This document shows positions 24,339 to 34,805 of a stretch of 64,000 nt of DNA, piece by piece. The stretch spans positions 735,059 to 799,058 of the forward strand of contig JAIOXN010000001.1 in assembly GCA_021741585.1 (NCBI GenBank). The letters run 5' to 3'. How positions within the stretch are numbered: the first letter of the stretch is position 1; the number at the start of each line of letters is the position of its first letter. The stretch comes from Aquiluna sp. GTDB lineage: Bacteria; Actinomycetota; Actinomycetes; Actinomycetales; Microbacteriaceae. Under the pieces are notes generated by a model. It ran no database searches. It saw nothing but the letters and a program-made list of their open reading frames with translations, and was not told the DNA's origin. The position numbers and the translations under genes are program-made.

Positions 24339-24998
24339 CTAGTCCAGTCGATAGCCCATTCCGCGCACGGTGCTGATTGAATCATTGCCGAGTTTTTGCC
24401 TTAGATAGCGAATATAAACATCCACCACATTTGAACCTGGATCATGATCAAATCCCCAAACCCTTGAGAGGATCTGCTCTCTTGCAAGCACCTGTCCAGG
24501 ATGTCTCAGGAAGAACTCCAGCATGGTGAATTCTCGGGCGGTTAGGTCGTGGCTTTTGCCGTCCACATGCACCCTTCTGGTGCGCAGGTCTAGCTCGATG
24601 TTCCCGTGGGTCAAGCTTGTCTCTTGGTTGGAGTCGGTTGGAATCTTGATGCGGCGACGAACTCTCGCCAGCAACTCCTCAAAGGAGAAGGGCTTTGACA
24701 TGTAGTCATCAGCACCGCCCTCAAAGCTTGCAACCGTGTTGTCGACACTGTCCTTGGCCGTCAAAACAATCACCGGAACATCGTTGCCGGAACCGCGCAG
24801 CTGTTCTAGTACCTCAAAGCCATCGATTCCAGGAAGCCCAATATCCAAAATCACCAGGTCGAATTGTGCTGCCTGCAAAAGCCGCAGTGCCTCTTCACCG
24901 GACTCAACGTGGGTGAGGCTATAGCCATGGGCTTGGAGCCCTTTGACAATAAATGATGCAATACGCACAGCATCTTCAACTACCAAAATATTTGTCAA
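24339..24998 (-). CDS. OmpR-family response regulator
   Basis: A 219-residue two-domain regulator. The receiver domain has VVEDA, the phospho-acceptor D52 (LVILDIGLPG), Thr/Ala in VLTAKDS and Lys in MSKPFSF; the C-terminal winged helix has LTAREFTMLEFFLRHPG and SNVVDVYIRYLRQKLG, then VRGMGYRLD. It acts as a DNA-binding transcription factor paired with the overlapping sensor kinase gene (4-base overlap). A likely target is the repeated 18-base element in the promoters of its own operon and of the nearby flavin-redox operons. Confidence 0.93.
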   Translation of the reverse strand: MTNILVVEDAVRIASFIVKGLQAHGYSLTHVESGEEALRLLQAAQFDLVILDIGLPGIDGFEVLEQLRGSGNDVPVIVLTAKDSVDNTVASFEGGADDYMSKPFSFEELLARVRRRIKIPTDSNQETSLTHGNIELDLRTRRVHVDGKSHDLTAREFTMLEFFLRHPGQVLAREQILSRVWGFDHDPGSNVVDVYIRYLRQKLGNDSISTVRGMGYRLD

Positions 24999-26398
24999 TT
25001 TGACCTCGGCAACTGCAGCGTGAATTTTGCGCCACCCAAATCGGAATCAGAGATCAACAGTTCTCCGCCGTGGCCCTTTGCAATTGCACTCACAACTGCC
25101 AACCCTAGCCCAGCTCCTCCGCTGTCGCTCTTTGGATTTGACCCCCGAACAAAACGTTCTTTGATTGTTTCTCTTTGGTCTTTTGGCACGCCAGGACCTG
25201 AATCGGAGACCGATATCGCCACATTATTGACGCTGGTCAGAATCTCAACTCGAATTAGGTCGCCCTCGTTTGTGAATCGGCAGGCATTTTCTGCAAGCTG
25301 CAAAACTGCTTGGGTAACGCGCTCACGATCAAGATTCCAACTTTGTTTTGGAATATCACTCAGCTCCCAATTCCTATCTCCGAGCTGGCTGGCCTTCACA
25401 AGTAGCTCATCGCCCAAATCAGAAAGCTTGACAGGTTTAGTTTGAATAAAGTCTGGCTGGGTAACTTTGGTGAGGGTCTGAAGATCTTTCACCAAACGAG
25501 ACATTCTGGAGAGCTCATCCTTCACAATCTCCATTGAGGATTCTCGTTGAGTGGGGTCTGATTCAATCAATTCAAGGTGCCCAGAGATTACGGTAAGCGG
25601 GGTCCTGAGTTCGTGCCCGGCATCATCGACAAACTGCTTATTCGAAGCGACCGTCTCTTCGATTCGCCCCAGCATCAGATTGAACTCGTCAACCAGTTTG
25701 TTCAGCTCACTGCCGGCCTTGCTCTTTGAGATTCTTCTGGTGAGGTCATGAGCTCCTATCTCATGAGCGGTTGTCGTGATCTCATTGATAGGTCGTAGCG
25801 CTCTTCCTGCAACCAACCAACCCACCGCAGTTGCCGCAATCAGCGACAAGAAGACAATCAGTGCAAATCGATACAGCAAATCGGTGATTTCTTGGGATTG
25901 CCGATCGCTAAAAATGACCCCGACCAATGCCCCAGAATCACTCTCTCCGATGACCGGAACCACGATGAACCTGGCGTTCCCCACATCAGTTGAGAAGTTC
26001 CCAAATCCAGCTTTTGTCATTGAATTGGCTATCTCAAGAAACATCGGGTCTTGATCCAAGCGAACCGGTGGCGTGTCAGTGGTTCTTGCCAGAACCTGGC
26101 CATTGACAATCACGAACATGGTTTCATTCGGATCGGTTACCGTGCGCTGGATATAAAGTTCAAGGACCCCTCTGGCCGTTTCAAAAGGTGCATCGGTTTT
26201 TGGATCAATGGCCTTATTGGCCAAGACCTGCAACTCGGTTGCTTCGCGCTGCAAATGCCCATCGATACTTTGTTGTTGCTGCTGGGTGAGCATGAACCAC
26301 GCGGTAAAGAGCGTGAGAACAAGGACCAGCAACACTGGCACAAGCACCCATGCCAAAAGCCTCACCCTGGTTGAGCGCAGCAGGGCCAGCCGCATCAT
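24995..26398 (-). CDS. Membrane sensor histidine kinase
   Basis: A 467-residue classical sensor. Two membrane helices (about 14-35 and 177-200) enclose an extracytoplasmic sensing domain of about 140 residues; then a HAMP segment (RALRPINEITTTAHEIG), the phospho-acceptor His262 in DDAGHELRTPLT, and ATPase boxes NACRFTNEG, SDSGPGVP and GAGLGLAVV. It overlaps the lipoprotein gene before it and the regulator gene after it by 4 bases each, so all three are made together. The signal is unknown; the co-translated lipoprotein may be an accessory sensor. Confidence 0.93.
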   Translation of the reverse strand: MMRLALLRSTRVRLLAWVLVPVLLVLVLTLFTAWFMLTQQQQQSIDGHLQREATELQVLANKAIDPKTDAPFETARGVLELYIQRTVTDPNETMFVIVNGQVLARTTDTPPVRLDQDPMFLEIANSMTKAGFGNFSTDVGNARFIVVPVIGESDSGALVGVIFSDRQSQEITDLLYRFALIVFLSLIAATAVGWLVAGRALRPINEITTTAHEIGAHDLTRRISKSKAGSELNKLVDEFNLMLGRIEETVASNKQFVDDAGHELRTPLTVISGHLELIESDPTQRESSMEIVKDELSRMSRLVKDLQTLTKVTQPDFIQTKPVKLSDLGDELLVKASQLGDRNWELSDIPKQSWNLDRERVTQAVLQLAENACRFTNEGDLIRVEILTSVNNVAISVSDSGPGVPKDQRETIKERFVRGSNPKSDSGGAGLGLAVVSAIAKGHGGELLISDSDLGGAKFTLQLPRSN

Positions 26399-26904
26399 TT
26401 GCTCACCTGATAGCTAAATGTTTCGTGGACAAGTTCGTTGTCCTCACCCAAGATTGGTAAGTCCTTGCTCAAATCAAAGACACCGTCGCCATCATCGAGA
26501 TAGAGCGCAGCCTGAAGCTCTTGGCTCTGCAAAAGTGGGATGTCAAAAAATAGCGTCACCGGTTGGCTCTGAGGGGTAACAAAGGCTTCGCTGACCACAA
26601 AATTCTGAGAGTTATAGATCACTAAGAATGCATTTCCGCGCGAGACCTGAATCTCATGAATCTTGAGAGTGACCCCGTCACCAACCTGATCATCGATCTC
26701 AATCTCGGAATCAGGGTCCCTGGCGTATTCCTGAACCGCGGGTTCTGAAGGAGCCGTTGATTCAGTTATCGTTCCCGGTTCTAGATATATCGCCTCTAGG
26801 TTTTCAAAGTCCTTGGCTGGGGCATTGGTGCAGGCAGCTAATGTGAGCGAACCCGCAAGGATAAGCAAGAAGGTCTTAGCTACTCTTCTTGAAATTTTTG
26901 CCAT
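26395..26904 (-). CDS. Lipoprotein of the two-component operon
   Basis: A 169-residue exported lipoprotein: basic N-terminus, hydrophobic core and lipobox LAAC (C25), an acidic linker (DPDSEIEIDDQ), then a compact beta-rich domain (VTLKIHEIQVSRGNAFLVIY, then ALYLDDGDGVFDLSKDLP). That domain resembles the DUF7282-type beta fold and includes a DxDxD-like DDGDGVFD acidic loop that could bind Ca2+ or another cation; both points are weak. It heads the operon with sensor kinase and regulator, so an accessory sensing role is possible. Confidence 0.75.
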   Translation of the reverse strand: MAKISRRVAKTFLLILAGSLTLAACTNAPAKDFENLEAIYLEPGTITESTAPSEPAVQEYARDPDSEIEIDDQVGDGVTLKIHEIQVSRGNAFLVIYNSQNFVVSEAFVTPQSQPVTLFFDIPLLQSQELQAALYLDDGDGVFDLSKDLPILGEDNELVHETFSYQVSK

Positions 26905-26963: not shown

Positions 26964-27014
26964 CGTTGGTCACTTTCTAAAGACAACACCTTGGATTGCG
27001 GTCACAATGGACCC

Positions 27015-28415
27015 ATGACCACACAAAAGCCGGGAGTTGTAATCCTGGGCACCGGCAAACTATTGAGCTTGCAAAGAAAAACCGATTTTGTTCAAGTGCT
27101 TGCAATTGCCGGAGTGTTAATTCCCGTGCTGTTCTTTTTAGCAAACGGTGGTCTTGCAAAGGCGAACGATATTGCAAGTTGGCTAGATGTAGTGAACCGA
27201 CTTACCGCTCTGATTGGCACTTCGCTGCTATTGGTTCACATGATCTTGATTGCAAGAGTCCCTTGGTTGGAAAGAATTCTGGGCTTGGACAAACTAACCC
27301 ACGCACATAAAAAGCTCGGCAAGCCGATTCTTTACCTTTTTGTTGGCCATGCGGTTGCCGCGGTTCTGAGCTACTCGATCTCTGATCAAACCGACGTCGC
27401 TCAAACCTTTTTCCACCTGGTGATTGATTTCTCGGACCTGTTGTTTGCAACTCTTGGGCTCTTGCTAATGGTTGCCGTGGTTGTCTCTTCTATAAATGCC
27501 GCTAGGCGAAACTTGAGCTATGAGGCCTGGTATTTGATTCACCTGCTTTCATACCTCTCAATCTTTTTGGCCATCCCGCACCAATTCAGTCTTGGAACCG
27601 AGCTGTTGGCTCAGCCAATGTTGATGGGCTACTACATCGCTTTATACGTCTTCGTTGGTGCCAATATTCTCTGGTTTAGATTCCTAGTCCCGATAGTTGC
27701 GTCGGTAAGGCTTGGGCTAAAGGTGGTTTCTGTGAAACCCGAAGCCAACAAGACCACCTCGATTGAGATAGGTGGCAAAAACATTTACCGTCTTGGTGCA
27801 GAAGCCGGCCAGTTCTTTATGCTTCGTGTGTTGACCAGAAAGCAGTGGTGGCGACCACATCCATTTTCAATTAGCTCAGACCCGGTGAATTCAATTCGTT
27901 TCACTGTCGGAAATCGCGGGGATGACACCGCTTTGCTCCAAGAAATCAAGGTTGGAACCAGGGTCATTCTCGAGGGCCCATTCGGGGTTTTCAGTGAATC
28001 AAAGCGCACCAAACAACATGTGCTTCTGCTGGCTGCGGGAATTGGTGTCGCACCCATTAGAGCCCTGGCTGAGTCTCTTGCCGCAGAGCCGGGGGATGTC
28101 ACGATTGTTTATCGAGTCACCGATCGTTCTGATGCTGCCCTCATCGAGGAGCTTGAGAGGATTTCCGAATCAAAGGGCCACGTTCTGCACGTCCTTGGCG
28201 GTCCAAGACCCGAGGGCGAAGGCTTCCTACCAAAGCAGCTCGAAGACGAGCCAGCAAAACCCGAATATGCGCGCTTTATCGAATTGGCACCATTTGTTGC
28301 CGAGTCCGATATCTATATCTGCGGCCCGACCTCTTGGTCACAAGCCGCTATGGCCAGTTTGAAAAAACTTCAAATCGAAAAAACTAGCATCCACTTAGAG
28401 GAGTTTGCCTGGTGA
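27015..28415 (+). CDS. Ferric-reductase-like flavocytochrome (membrane NAD(P)H oxidoreductase)
   Basis: About 466 residues. The first 220 form a six-helix ferric-reductase-type membrane domain with paired histidines for heme (HAHKKLGKP/FVGHAVAAV and WYLIHLLSYLSIF/IPHQF). Then come an FAD-binding barrel (RPHPFSISSDP, about residue 275) and an NAD(P)-binding domain (LLAAGIGVAPIRALAES, IYICGPTSW). It should pass electrons from cytoplasmic NAD(P)H across the membrane to an outer acceptor. The downstream gene, overlapping by 4 bases, encodes an FMN-binding exported protein that is a natural acceptor. ATG was taken as start; a TTG 24 bases upstream is in frame. It may be leaderless or weakly initiated since no clear ribosome site is seen. 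Confidence 0.88.
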   Translation: MTTQKPGVVILGTGKLLSLQRKTDFVQVLAIAGVLIPVLFFLANGGLAKANDIASWLDVVNRLTALIGTSLLLVHMILIARVPWLERILGLDKLTHAHKKLGKPILYLFVGHAVAAVLSYSISDQTDVAQTFFHLVIDFSDLLFATLGLLLMVAVVVSSINAARRNLSYEAWYLIHLLSYLSIFLAIPHQFSLGTELLAQPMLMGYYIALYVFVGANILWFRFLVPIVASVRLGLKVVSVKPEANKTTSIEIGGKNIYRLGAEAGQFFMLRVLTRKQWWRPHPFSISSDPVNSIRFTVGNRGDDTALLQEIKVGTRVILEGPFGVFSESKRTKQHVLLLAAGIGVAPIRALAESLAAEPGDVTIVYRVTDRSDAALIEELERISESKGHVLHVLGGPRPEGEGFLPKQLEDEPAKPEYARFIELAPFVAESDIYICGPTSWSQAAMASLKKLQIEKTSIHLEEFAW

Positions 28416-28981
28416 GAACATCAACATTTGCCTTGACGACTCTGGTTGCAGCCAGCTCGCTAACCCTGGCTTGGAGTTATGGTCAGCAGACTTCACAGAG
28501 TGAGCTTTTGATTCCAGAACTCATAACGGGGAATCCAAACCCAACGGTCACGGAAACATCGAGCGCCCAGCCACAGGAACCTGGAACGAGCACTAGCACC
28601 CAGGCTCCTGCCACTCCCGATCCTGGCGCAACCACTCAACCGACCACAGCTCAACCAACCCAGACTCAAACCGCAACCCAAGCCCCGGCGGCGACCCAGA
28701 CCGCTACCGCCGCACCGGCACCTGTAACCAAGACCGTGACCTCTGATCCAATCGACTATAAATATGGCACGGTCCAGATTTCTATGACTAAGACTGACGG
28801 CTTAATAACCGCAATCAACATGGTGCAGGGCGATGCCACCAACGGTCGTGCCGAAGCATATGTCACTCTGATAAGTGCAACCATTCAAGTGCAGGGAACC
28901 AACTACGGAAATATCTCGGGAGCAACCTTCACCACAGATGCCTTCAAGAAGGCCGTGGATAACGTTCTAAAGAAGTTCTAA
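28412..28981 (+). CDS. Exported FMN-binding-domain protein (electron carrier)
   Basis: A 189-residue exported protein: N-terminal hydrophobic segment (7-22), a long Thr/Pro/Ala/Gln-rich linker (about 35-110) like a cell-wall-spanning stalk, then an FMN_bind domain. The flavinylation motif SGATFT is at 169-174, with T174 the expected residue for covalent FMN attachment by ApbE. It is coupled to the flavocytochrome gene by a GTGA overlap and converges on apbE with a 4-base overlap. Together these form an extracytoplasmic electron-transfer set; the final acceptor is unknown. Confidence 0.9.
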   Translation: MRTSTFALTTLVAASSLTLAWSYGQQTSQSELLIPELITGNPNPTVTETSSAQPQEPGTSTSTQAPATPDPGATTQPTTAQPTQTQTATQAPAATQTATAAPAPVTKTVTSDPIDYKYGTVQISMTKTDGLITAINMVQGDATNGRAEAYVTLISATIQVQGTNYGNISGATFTTDAFKKAVDNVLKKF

Positions 28982-29754
28982 AGGGTGGCCAAGAGCGCCG
29001 CAAAACCAGCGCTCGAGGAGATGCTCAGATCTTCACTGATTGCAATGGCACAGGCATCAGCTGGGGAAACTCGCTCCCTGAAAAGGGCCAGGGCCTGATC
29101 CCCACCGCTAATCAATGCGGTTGCCCAGATATCGGCTAGAACCAAATCCTTGGCAACCACGGTTGCCTGCAAAAAACTTGAATCCTGCTTGCGCCAAATG
29201 TGTTCACCGCGTTCTGCCGAACCGCTGGTTGCAACCGCTCTAAAGTCGGTTTTTGCTAGGTCAAGAATCAGGTTTGAACCGGCAGATTCAGATGCAATCG
29301 GCGTGAGGTTCGAAAGCCCAACCCGAAACAGCAGTGGCGAGGTGAGGCCCTTGCTCAAGAAAATATCGCCACCAGCGTTGAGCGTGAAATTGCGCAAGCC
29401 ATTGGCCTCTAGGTACCGCGCTGCATTTTGAGCAGCCCAGCTCTTCACCAGCCCGGATGGGTCATAAACACCGACGGGTGAGACCGGATCAAAAAATGAG
29501 TTAGTGCGCTCTTTCCAAACGGAAGCCTCATCGCGGATTGTCTTTTGCACTCCGCTTGCAGCATCCCAAGACAGAGCGCGTGAGTTAAGCCTCGAGATTT
29601 CAGAATCAGACTTATACAAACTGAATCTCAGATCTGCATCATCGAGAATCTCCATGGCGTTCTTGCAAATTGCTTCAAGCTCGGCAGTTGACCATTCGTC
29701 CTCTATTTGAAAAACAAATGTAGTCCCCATGCAATCTTGAGCAAATCGAAACAC
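28978..29754 (-). CDS. apbE: FAD:protein FMN transferase
   Basis: Attaches FMN covalently to Thr/Ser of target proteins, using FAD and Mg2+, on the outer side of the membrane. The 258-residue protein shows CMGTTFVFQI at the start, SLYKSDSEISRLN, PVGVYDPSGLVKSWAAQNA, LNAGGDIFL and, near the C-terminus, ADIWATALISGG. No clear signal peptide or lipobox is seen, unlike many ApbE proteins, so export route is uncertain. The neighbouring FMN-binding protein has the target motif and is the expected substrate. It is downstream of the Asp/His-rich gene by 14 bases. Confidence 0.9.
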   Translation of the reverse strand: MFRFAQDCMGTTFVFQIEDEWSTAELEAICKNAMEILDDADLRFSLYKSDSEISRLNSRALSWDAASGVQKTIRDEASVWKERTNSFFDPVSPVGVYDPSGLVKSWAAQNAARYLEANGLRNFTLNAGGDIFLSKGLTSPLLFRVGLSNLTPIASESAGSNLILDLAKTDFRAVATSGSAERGEHIWRKQDSSFLQATVVAKDLVLADIWATALISGGDQALALFRERVSPADACAIAISEDLSISSSAGFAALLATL

Positions 29755-29768
29755 CTTTGGGCTACTTT

Positions 29769-30569
29769 CTAGTCGTCATCGTCGTCGTGGTCACGGTCAT
29801 CGTCGTCGTGGTCACGGTCATCATCATCGTGGTCACGGTCATCATCATCGTGGTCACGGTCATCGTCGTCCTGGTCACGGTCATCGTCGTCATACCCAGA
29901 TGAACCTGCAGGGGTTGGACTTGAAACATTTGCTGTTCCTGAGTTTGAAGACTGTCCTGCACTAGATCCGGCCTGGGACGTCGAGCTGGAAGTCGGCGTC
30001 GGGCCTGAAACATTAGCTGTTCCCGAGGCTGGAGTTTGTCCTGCACTAGATCCGACTTGCGCGGAAGAGCCCGCATCGGGAGTCGCACTAGAAACATTTC
30101 CAGCAGCAATTGGTGATAGCTCCAATGGAGGGGCTGCTGTGGTTGGAGTTGGAGTTGGGTTTGAAGTTGGAGACTGCACCCCGGATGCTGTCGCTGATGG
30201 CAAAGGAGTGGTTCCCGTTGCCACCGTTGGATTGGCACTAGCAAGAAGATTGATGTCCGCATTGGTTGTTGCCATGGCAGTTGGCAGGTTGGAACCAACC
30301 TGGTTGGAAGCTTCTGAACCTGTGGCAGTTGGATTGGAACCCACTGCGTTGGAGGCAACTTGGCCGCTGGCAAGGGATGTGACGTCAGTGGAATCAATCT
30401 GATTCGCAGCCGAATTGGCAGTATTTGATTGAGGGACAAAGAATGCTCCGGCACCAGGCATGGCAATTGTTAGCGCGGTTGCTACAGAACCGACCGCAAT
30501 GACAGTTGAGCCAATCTTGGACGCAACGCTTGGCTTGCGGTTATCAAACTCATAAGTCTTCTTGGACAT
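29769..30569 (-). CDS. Membrane-anchored low-complexity protein with Asp/His-rich C-terminal heptad repeats
   Basis: A 266-residue protein with three zones. Residues 1-50: basic start and a hydrophobic segment (IGSTVIAVGSVATALTIAM). Residues 50-230: a Ser/Thr/Ala/Pro/Gly/Asn-rich region containing two similar blocks (GSSAGQTPASGTANVSGPTP and GSSAGQSSNSGTANVSSPTP). Residues 231-266: five copies of DDDDRD(H/Q). No family is recognised. The acidic/His tail could bind cations such as Fe, Cu or Ca. The gene has a strong AGAAGGAG ribosome site, precedes apbE in one operon and carries the shared 18-base element upstream, so it probably belongs to the flavin-redox set. Confidence 0.82.
   Translation of the reverse strand: MSKKTYEFDNRKPSVASKIGSTVIAVGSVATALTIAMPGAGAFFVPQSNTANSAANQIDSTDVTSLASGQVASNAVGSNPTATGSEASNQVGSNLPTAMATTNADINLLASANPTVATGTTPLPSATASGVQSPTSNPTPTPTTAAPPLELSPIAAGNVSSATPDAGSSAQVGSSAGQTPASGTANVSGPTPTSSSTSQAGSSAGQSSNSGTANVSSPTPAGSSGYDDDDRDQDDDDRDHDDDDRDHDDDDRDHDDDDRDHDDDDD
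29772..29885 (-). repeat. 21-base tandem repeats coding for (DDDDRDH)n
   Basis: Five in-frame 21-base units lie at the 3' end of the Asp/His-rich gene, differing mostly at synonymous third positions (GTC/ATC variants of Asp codons). Units keep reading frame, so copy number may vary without breaking the gene. Confidence 0.85.
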
Positions 30570-34022: not shown

Positions 34023-34805
34023 GTGTCGAATTTGTCACCATTTCTAGATAATGGGCAGTACACGATTATCTACAACATGCTCTCCATGGGCATTGCAGCA
34101 ATGCTTTTCACCTCCATCTTCCTGTTTGTCGGCCGCGAGCGCGTATTGCCTCGTTACCGCATGGCAGTGATGGTCTCCGCGACAGTAACTTCGATTGCCG
34201 CTTACCACTACTTCAGAATGTTTGATGACTTCAAGCACGCATTCGGCCCCGAGGGCATGGGTGTTGTCGCCTACAACGTTGGCTACCGCTACGTTGACTG
34301 GTTCCTAACAGTTCCACTGCTATTGGTTGAGACCGTTGCCGTTCTTGCTCTTGCACGTGCAGTTCAGTCCAAGATGCTAATGAAGCTTGTTCCTGCTGCT
34401 GCATTGATGATTGGTCTTGGTTACCCAGGAGATGCTCGTTTGGACATCTGGGGCATTGAGCCAAGCGTCTGGGGACTACTGTCTACCATCCCATTCCTAT
34501 ACATCCTTTACGTATTGTTCGTAGAGCTAGGAAAGAGCTTGGAGCGCCAGTCGGCACCGGTTAAGAAGAAGATTTCTCAGTTGCGCCTACTTCTTTTGGC
34601 AACCTGGGGTGTCTACCCAATCTCGTTCATCTTCAACATGAACGCAACTGGCTTCGACCCAGCTGGCTTCGTGGCTCGCGAGACCGGCTACTCAATCGCC
34701 GACATCCTTGCCAAGTGTCTATTTGGCTTGGTCATCTTCTCGATTGCTCGCATCAAGAGCGCCGAGGACGACGTCGAATTCGCAAAGAGCGAGTTCAAGG
34801 ACTAG
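34023..34805 (+). CDS. Actinorhodopsin, light-driven proton pump
   Basis: A 260-residue, seven-helix microbial rhodopsin. Retinal lysine K231 is in ADILAKCLFGL. Helix C carries the proton-pump set D92 (acceptor), T96 and E103 (donor) in YRYVDWFLTVPLLLVE, with L100 at the proteorhodopsin position-105 tuning site, predicting green absorption. H62 pairs with D92 as in proteorhodopsin. G151 aligns with the small residue that opens the carotenoid-antenna fenestration in xanthorhodopsin. GTG start follows GAAAGGA. Codons favour a few synonymous choices more than neighbours, suggesting high expression. A strong terminator follows, so the gene is probably transcribed alone. Retinal-synthesis genes are not in the window. 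Confidence 0.96.
   Translation: MSNLSPFLDNGQYTIIYNMLSMGIAAMLFTSIFLFVGRERVLPRYRMAVMVSATVTSIAAYHYFRMFDDFKHAFGPEGMGVVAYNVGYRYVDWFLTVPLLLVETVAVLALARAVQSKMLMKLVPAAALMIGLGYPGDARLDIWGIEPSVWGLLSTIPFLYILYVLFVELGKSLERQSAPVKKKISQLRLLLLATWGVYPISFIFNMNATGFDPAGFVARETGYSIADILAKCLFGLVIFSIARIKSAEDDVEFAKSEFKD

Follow-up and report, generated by a model that had tools for sequence, protein, structure and literature searches.

Organization of the locus and properties of protein A

The window, i.e. the whole 64,000-nt stretch of Aquiluna sp. DNA that was analysed, encodes an acid-tailed protein, hereafter protein A, which is followed on the same strand by ApbE (Table 1). The gene for an FMN_bind protein faces apbE and is preceded by that of a ferric-reductase-like membrane protein, for which PF01794 and PF00175 scored 54.6 and 29.4 bits, respectively, each above cut-off. 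With apbE and FMN_bind adjoining, and with both PF02424 and PF04205 above cut-off, the locus fits an MsrQ-like flavinylation cluster. The best NCBIfam matches of the kinase and response regulator were heavy-metal two-component models, all under cut-offs, the top match of the kinase being a heavy-metal sensor kinase model. No signal peptide is apparent in the window ApbE, the hydropathy over its first 45 residues being at most 0.43. A bacteriorhodopsin-like gene lies at 34023-34805, ~3.4 kb from the gene for protein A.

Table 1. Genes and sequence features of the locus, with positions given in window coordinates
Feature	Position	Strand	Evidence
OmpR-type response regulator	24339..24998	-	PF00072, PF00486
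Sensor histidine kinase	24995..26398	-	PF02518, PF00512, PF00672
DUF7282-like lipoprotein	26395..26904	-	PF23951, 23.3 bits, under cut-off of 27
Ferric-reductase-like membrane protein, FAD and NAD domains, start codon uncertain	26991..28415	+	PF01794, PF00970, PF00175
Exported FMN_bind protein, motif GNISGAT	28412..28981	+	PF04205, 24.1 bits, cut-off 22
ApbE, FAD:protein FMN transferase	28978..29754	-	PF02424, 78.9 bits; 14 nt downstream of protein A gene
Acid-tailed protein A, 266 aa	29769..30569	-	ORF and ribosome site; orthologues in 4 of 21 other genomes of the genus
Acidic tail, residues 227-266, 21-base tandem array	29772..29891	-	Tandem Repeats Finder and sequence
Flavinylation-like motif 3, NVSSPT, residues 214-219	29913..29930	-	Motif search
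Flavinylation-like motif 2, NVSGPT, residues 186-191	29997..30014	-	Motif search
Flavinylation-like motif 1, NVSSAT, residues 158-163	30081..30098	-	Motif search
N-terminal export/membrane segment, ~residues 19-45	30435..30515	-	Best 18-residue hydropathy 1.81

A competing frame (29762-30466, minus strand) was set aside, since the reported frame has orthologues in four other genomes and must therefore be the real one. The membrane segment and ribosome site described by the first-pass annotation were both recovered, the ATG start being preceded by a good ribosome site (AGAAGGAG). The acidic repeat is likewise real, as the tail sequence and the tandem array found by Tandem Repeats Finder agree. 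That is, the tail reads DDDDRDQ, followed by four copies of DDDDRDH and a DDDDD terminus; the five near-identical heptads that had been claimed are present, but with the terminal Asp run besides, and the tail measures 40 residues instead of the 36 first given. The array (29775-29891; period 21, 5.6 copies, 94% matches, score 199) had the top score among the five tandem arrays of the window. Synonymous variation between the 21-base units had been taken as a sign that selection acts on the protein. The units do exist, but they differ little: GAT GAT replaces GAC GAC at the first two Asp positions of units 3 and 4 and nowhere else, so that selection on the heptad is weakly based. None of the remaining four orthologues in the genus has the heptad, and DDDDRDH was therefore rejected as a conserved unit: judging from the orthologue sequences, the heptad is local, and the relatives hold an Asp/Glu/His tail in its place.

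Protein A gave no match in Pfam or NCBIfam at E ≤ 0.001; thus neither a single FMN_bind domain (PF04205) nor more than one, as in multi-flavinylated proteins, was found with Pfam. When NCBIfam matches up to E 0.1 were considered, two unrelated families appeared, far under their cut-offs, and these were taken as low-complexity noise. A single-sequence AlphaFold2 model had a mean pLDDT of 41, a faint indication that the protein may be disordered.

Occurrence in the genus

Orthologues of protein A were identified in 5 of 22 genomes of the genus at E ≤ 6e-5 (G000, G005, G007, G008 and G011), and apbE adjoins the gene in all five. ApbE itself occurs in 6 of the 22 genomes, these five included. In the sixth, G016, the reductase, FMN_bind and ApbE genes lie on one strand with no protein A gene upstream, and the contig stops 55 nt past apbE. 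Weaker matches in six further genomes of the genus were taken as noise, and a scan of genome contigs with protein A as query gave no relatives. Conservation across the five orthologues extends to the acidity of the tail, the last tag-like motif and parts of the N-terminus, but not to the heptad or to most of the linker. G007 carries a second reductase/FMN_bind pair that has no adjoining protein A gene (L028:11869-13799) and resembles the pair of G016. In G005, a heliorhodopsin gene (PF18761) lies upstream of the acid-tailed gene, and by eye a similar protein is encoded in the G011 region (L027:11426-12280; L030:961-1791).

A-B operons in other genera

When 398 genomes of the family were searched with a profile built from the five orthologues, exported proteins with acidic tails were revealed in other genera. 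The profile matched 45 of the 398 genomes at E ≤ 0.01, many of which were set aside as compositional; 27 loci were read and wider DNA was taken for 14. The common arrangement in other genera is an operon headed by the gene for an A protein; those for protein B, also small and exported, for ApbE and for a ferric-reductase-like protein follow, the last having a 2Fe-2S domain in the one case scanned. These A-B operons are usually divergent from a regulator/kinase pair. ApbE of the A-B type was found in 40 of the 398 genomes at E ≤ 7.3e-50, and more weakly in G081. It can be aligned with FMN transferases of known structure, the HH-[LI]-[IL]-D-P stretch included. A possible homology of window A to the A proteins of these operons is suggested by a common architecture rather than by a clean alignment.

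Scanning named genomes with an ApbE alignment yielded 78 loci, in Aurantimicrobium, Alpinimonas, Cryobacterium, Salinibacterium, Lacisediminihabitans, Galbitalea, Agromyces and metagenome-assembled genomes (MAGs), some of the latter labelled Ilumatobacteraceae, Acidimicrobiia or Nanopelagicales. This set is not independent of the 398-genome set, because the two share part of their genomes. A reductase-like ORF was present in 73 of the 78 loci at E ≤ 1e-5, the match being weak in three of them (one Paenibacillus and two Planctomycetaceae loci). No FMN_bind gene was detected in any of the 78 with a tailored profile. Six loci have less than 600 nt of sequence upstream; among the 72 with at least 600 nt, A was found in 63 and B in 65. 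In Agromyces bauzanensis the A, B and apbE genes follow one another with no intergenic room. By hydropathy, both A and B carry export segments, and a signal peptide is not apparent in the ApbE proteins of the A-B loci (median 0.89, with values of at least 1.6 in 2 of 64). None of the A and B proteins scanned has a Pfam domain, hence no recognized flavin-binding domain.

The first-pass annotation had linked the acid-tailed protein to ApbE and flavocytochromes, and a neighbourhood link in other genomes had been set beforehand as the test. Such a link was found, so that a reading in which it is absent fails, and the association with ApbE and ferric-reductase-like proteins is strongly supported by the many genera involved, by 73 of 78 named loci and by all five orthologue-bearing genomes of the genus. 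No relative of the A-B ApbE was detected among viral contigs. A search at the level of the order gave 0 of 396 at E ≤ 1e-35, which is uninformative because the sample held no positive. Four loci (L268, L273, L236 and L250) come from MAGs titled 'Bifidobacterium breve' or 'Acidobacteria' with an actinobacterial operon, and are probably mislabelled. In G390, a gene for a protein with an acidic tail adjoins a kinase/regulator pair (L074:8765-9562), and the genome has neither an ApbE nor an FMN_bind match.

Flavinylation-like motifs in window-type A proteins

In 11 aligned FMN_bind proteins of the bacterial family, the flavin motif reads N-x-S-x-A-T, in which the N, the S and the T never vary and the A hardly does. 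Motifs vary within the family, as in L075 and L082 (NVSRAT) and L108 and L109 (NISGGT). Window A contains three copies of N-x-S-[SG]-[AP]-T, one with A and two with P, which echo this motif; the canonical D-x-x-[ST]-G-A-[ST] is absent from the protein, the three copies being the nearest sequences to it. Among eight window-type A proteins (G000, G005, G007, G008, G011, G214, G031 and G222), N-x-S-[SGT]-[AP]-T occurs 3, 1, 2, 2, 2, 2, 1 and 0 times, respectively, and in the seven motif-bearing proteins the copy number exceeded that of shuffles with p between 0.0002 and 0.0018. The A protein of G163 (L035), which reads GNSSSPTP, was left out of this test. At the DNA level, the pattern N-x-S-[SG]-[AP]-T-P has six matches in the 1.386-Mb genome, three of them inside the protein A gene, vs. 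seven matches for a reversed control pattern. In G005, G007 and G011, i.e. three of the eight, the acceptor Thr is preceded by Pro only. Comparing the best 7-mer of each A protein with the FMN_bind motif of its own genome gave significant identity (p < 0.05) in three of the eight.

Tags and acidic tails of the A-B proteins

Most of the named B proteins (58 of 65) end in [ST][GAS][GA][ST] followed by 0-6 residues. Shuffled sequences gave a mean of 2.43 and a maximum of 8 in 2000 trials, and among the 574 other ORFs of these loci with a length of 150 aa or more, 5 matched the pattern. These shuffles, like those for A below, overstate independence, because the relaxed pattern was written after some tags had been seen and the genomes are related; in addition, A and B are rich in S/T/G/A/P. 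Distinct B proteins provide 53 tags; all 53 have Ser and none has Thr as the acceptor, though the pattern permits Thr, and 50 have Gly at -1. The natural tag is thus mostly [GA]-x-[ST]-[GSA]-G-S, with no strict Asp at the first place. In the 398-genome set the tag was found in 31 of 33 B proteins, across 11 of 12 genera. For this count, 35 of 41 A-B genomes were entered, leaving out G201 (N-run), G224 and G322 (contig ends) and G136, G190 and G066 (one tagged protein and no separate B), and two more (L070 and L199) were dropped when the ApbE pattern was not matched. A strict [ST]GA[ST] within six residues of the C-terminus was met in only 1 of the 33, so the B tags are variants relative to the published consensus. 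Gly at -1 nevertheless occurs in a conventional substrate, since the FMN_bind proteins of G079 and G246 have SGGT. Loci labelled Ilumatobacteraceae or Acidimicrobiaceae do have the B tag; the two with the label Nanopelagicales do not.

Of 32 A proteins, 25 contain a related pattern, [DNHSK][GA]x[ST][GAS][GA][ST] (shuffles gave 2.35 on average and 7 at most), and 16 of 31 A proteins resemble the B tag of their own genome at p < 0.01 when the whole mature protein is considered. The pattern was lacking in 7 of the 32 (in g76, g74, g66 and g82); G094 and G164 nonetheless have SGAT. The A proteins inspected from Ilumatobacteraceae- and Acidimicrobiaceae-labelled loci look tagless. Among the named loci, the A protein ends in DD in 58 of 63 cases and has a His within its last 30 residues in 46 of 63; on these counts the acidic tail is steadier than the tag. 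The median net charge is -22 for mature A and -2 for B. In G050, two acid-tailed genes lie in tandem (L155:2036-3424), the second encoding DASTGAS ahead of the tail.

Genomes with a single apbE and no recognized FMN_bind gene

Fifteen A-B genomes had no match to the tailored FMN_bind profile. Six were dropped: G207, G325 and G094 for weak PF04205 hits, G050 for a divergent FMN_bind-like lipoprotein next to a second ApbE, G202 for an N-run within the FMN_bind/ApbE frame and G268 for a second ApbE at a contig edge. The nine retained (G376, G288, G033, G230, G224, G248, G309, G175 and G081), out of the 41 genomes with A-B-type ApbE, gave a single ApbE match each, and neither Pfam nor the tailored profile detected FMN_bind in them; they are 75-94% complete, four of them at least 90%. 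The contig of G224 stops before A and B, and in G230 the B gene falls in an N-run. Incomplete assemblies or divergent FMN_bind proteins could possibly underlie this count, one divergent protein having been seen in G050. The latter protein, which the FMN_bind models missed, is encoded together with the second ApbE (L197:5957-8910) beside a large membrane protein that is RnfD/NqrB-like by eye.

Comparison with known flavinylation systems

ApbE puts FMN on the Ser/Thr of a short motif, for which the consensus D-x-x-[S/T]-G-A-[S/T] has been published; seven residues are reported to be enough, terminal tags to work best, and Thr to be preferred at the acceptor position (PMC12052999). The window has all three components described for MsrQ-like clusters (PF01794, ApbE and FMN_bind; Meheust et al. 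2021, PMC8238504) together with a NAD domain, and adds an acid-tailed exported protein. The A-B operons differ from those clusters by having no FMN_bind gene in 78 of 78 loci, two small proteins (B, and often A, being tagged) standing in its stead. According to the same work, MsrQ-like clusters probably draw on NAD(P)H, and a number of them may supply VIT1 with reduced iron.

Substrates with no FMN_bind domain have precedents. FMN_red and Flavodoxin_4 proteins are of this kind (Huang et al. 2024, PMC11334425), and the flavin sites of FMN_red sit on an unstructured C-terminal extension; those sites, however, adjoin a folded flavin-binding domain, whereas A and B have no Pfam domain. DUF2271 and DUF3570 substrates were likewise found through apbE context in genomes lacking FMN_bind, but are reported as folded, with a strict [S/T]GA[S/T], as opposed to the relaxed tag and low-complexity protein seen here (PMC8238504). 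The multi-flavinylated proteins of that study have several putative flavin sites per exported protein, comparable to the three motifs of window A, which unlike them has no FMN_bind domain. In the engineered flavin-tag (Tong et al., via PMC12052999), a terminal seven-residue motif is enough for ApbE; here, the tags are natural. The new element would be flavinylation-like tags on apparently disordered proteins; the first-pass annotation mentioned neither the motifs ahead of the tail nor the tagged protein B of other genera. No prior description of such tagged A/B proteins was found in a search by title and abstract, with supplementary files and most subscription journals outside its reach. Earlier work left out genes with no predicted signal peptide, which the A-B ApbEs apparently do not have.

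Possible function and alternative explanations

We propose, with a probability of roughly 0.55, that protein A is the acid-tailed member of a class of exported, apparently disordered proteins belonging to ApbE/ferric-reductase-like (MsrQ-like) flavinylation clusters. In this proposal Actinomycetota would use natural 'naked flavin tags', with A and B as a pair of flexible, disordered proteins that carry flavin for a membrane reductase driven by NAD(P)H, and the DDDDRDH protein would represent the acid-tailed type in a lineage where an FMN_bind partner has been retained. A and B are suggested as carriers because a seven-residue motif suffices for ApbE and because the FMN_red sites lie on an unstructured extension; judged from their sequences, they would be disordered ApbE substrates bearing covalent FMN and no recognized flavin-binding domain. 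Electrons from NAD(P)H would pass through the FAD and NAD domains to the membrane part of the ferric-reductase-like protein, and from there to FMN attached by ApbE to the exported carriers. In the window, these carriers would comprise the FMN_bind protein and most likely also A, modified at its N-x-S-[SG]-[AP]-T motifs; in the A-B operons, the role would fall to B, through its C-terminal tag, and often also to A, through a tag ahead of the acidic tail. The Asp/Glu/His tail may dock a cation near the flavin for reduction, probably iron or another reducible metal. We conjecture that a cytosolic ApbE would load the carriers before export, which would fit a C-terminal tag.

The main competitor, clearly less probable though to be taken seriously, is that A serves only as a metal- or cation-binding partner and that flavin is carried by the FMN_bind protein in the window and by B in the A-B operons. 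The steadiness of the tail speaks for it, a DD end being found in 58 of 63 A proteins whereas the tag pattern is lacking in 7 of 32, as do the conventional FMN_bind substrate of the window and the Pro ahead of the acceptor in three of eight window-type proteins. It accounts poorly, however, for the presence of the tag in 25 of 32 A proteins, where shuffling gives 2.35, for the likeness of 16 of 31 to their own B tag, and for the retention of up to three motif copies in window-type A, whose linker otherwise varies. An O-glycosylated Ser/Thr/Pro stalk displaying an acidic surface tail, in which S-S-P-T-P would be a glycosylation or wall-spacer repeat with no link to flavin, seems improbable. The linkers of A, B and the FMN_bind proteins are indeed rich in Ser/Thr/Ala/Pro, and in several copies the Thr is flanked by Pro on each side, but this reading would not account for the close association with ApbE or for the constant tag at the C-terminus of B. 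We consider it still less probable that the tags bind ApbE or the reductase unflavinylated, e.g. as docking peptides. The invariable Ser acceptor of the 53 distinct B tags, set against the Thr preference reported for ApbE (PMC12052999), and the Gly rather than Ala at -1 in 50 of them would suit such a role; yet nine genomes would then hold an ApbE with no recognized substrate, and the SGGT of the G079 and G246 FMN_bind proteins places Gly at -1 in a conventional substrate.

If A and B are indeed flavin carriers, flavin electron transfer outside the cytosol would need no flavin-binding fold, some orphan apbE genes would be explained, and a freshwater and soil clade of Actinomycetota would rely on tethered flavins, possibly to reduce metals. 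As candidate ApbE substrates, A and B are concrete and simple to test, also in cells, since Rhodoluna lacicola and Aurantimicrobium photophilum are reported to be naturally transformable (PMC11577799). As to the metal, a VIT1-family iron transporter gene (PF01988, 227.9 bits) adjoins the acid-tailed gene at L070:8329-9048 and in L279, the sole case among the 78 named loci, so that a role for iron is at most hinted at.
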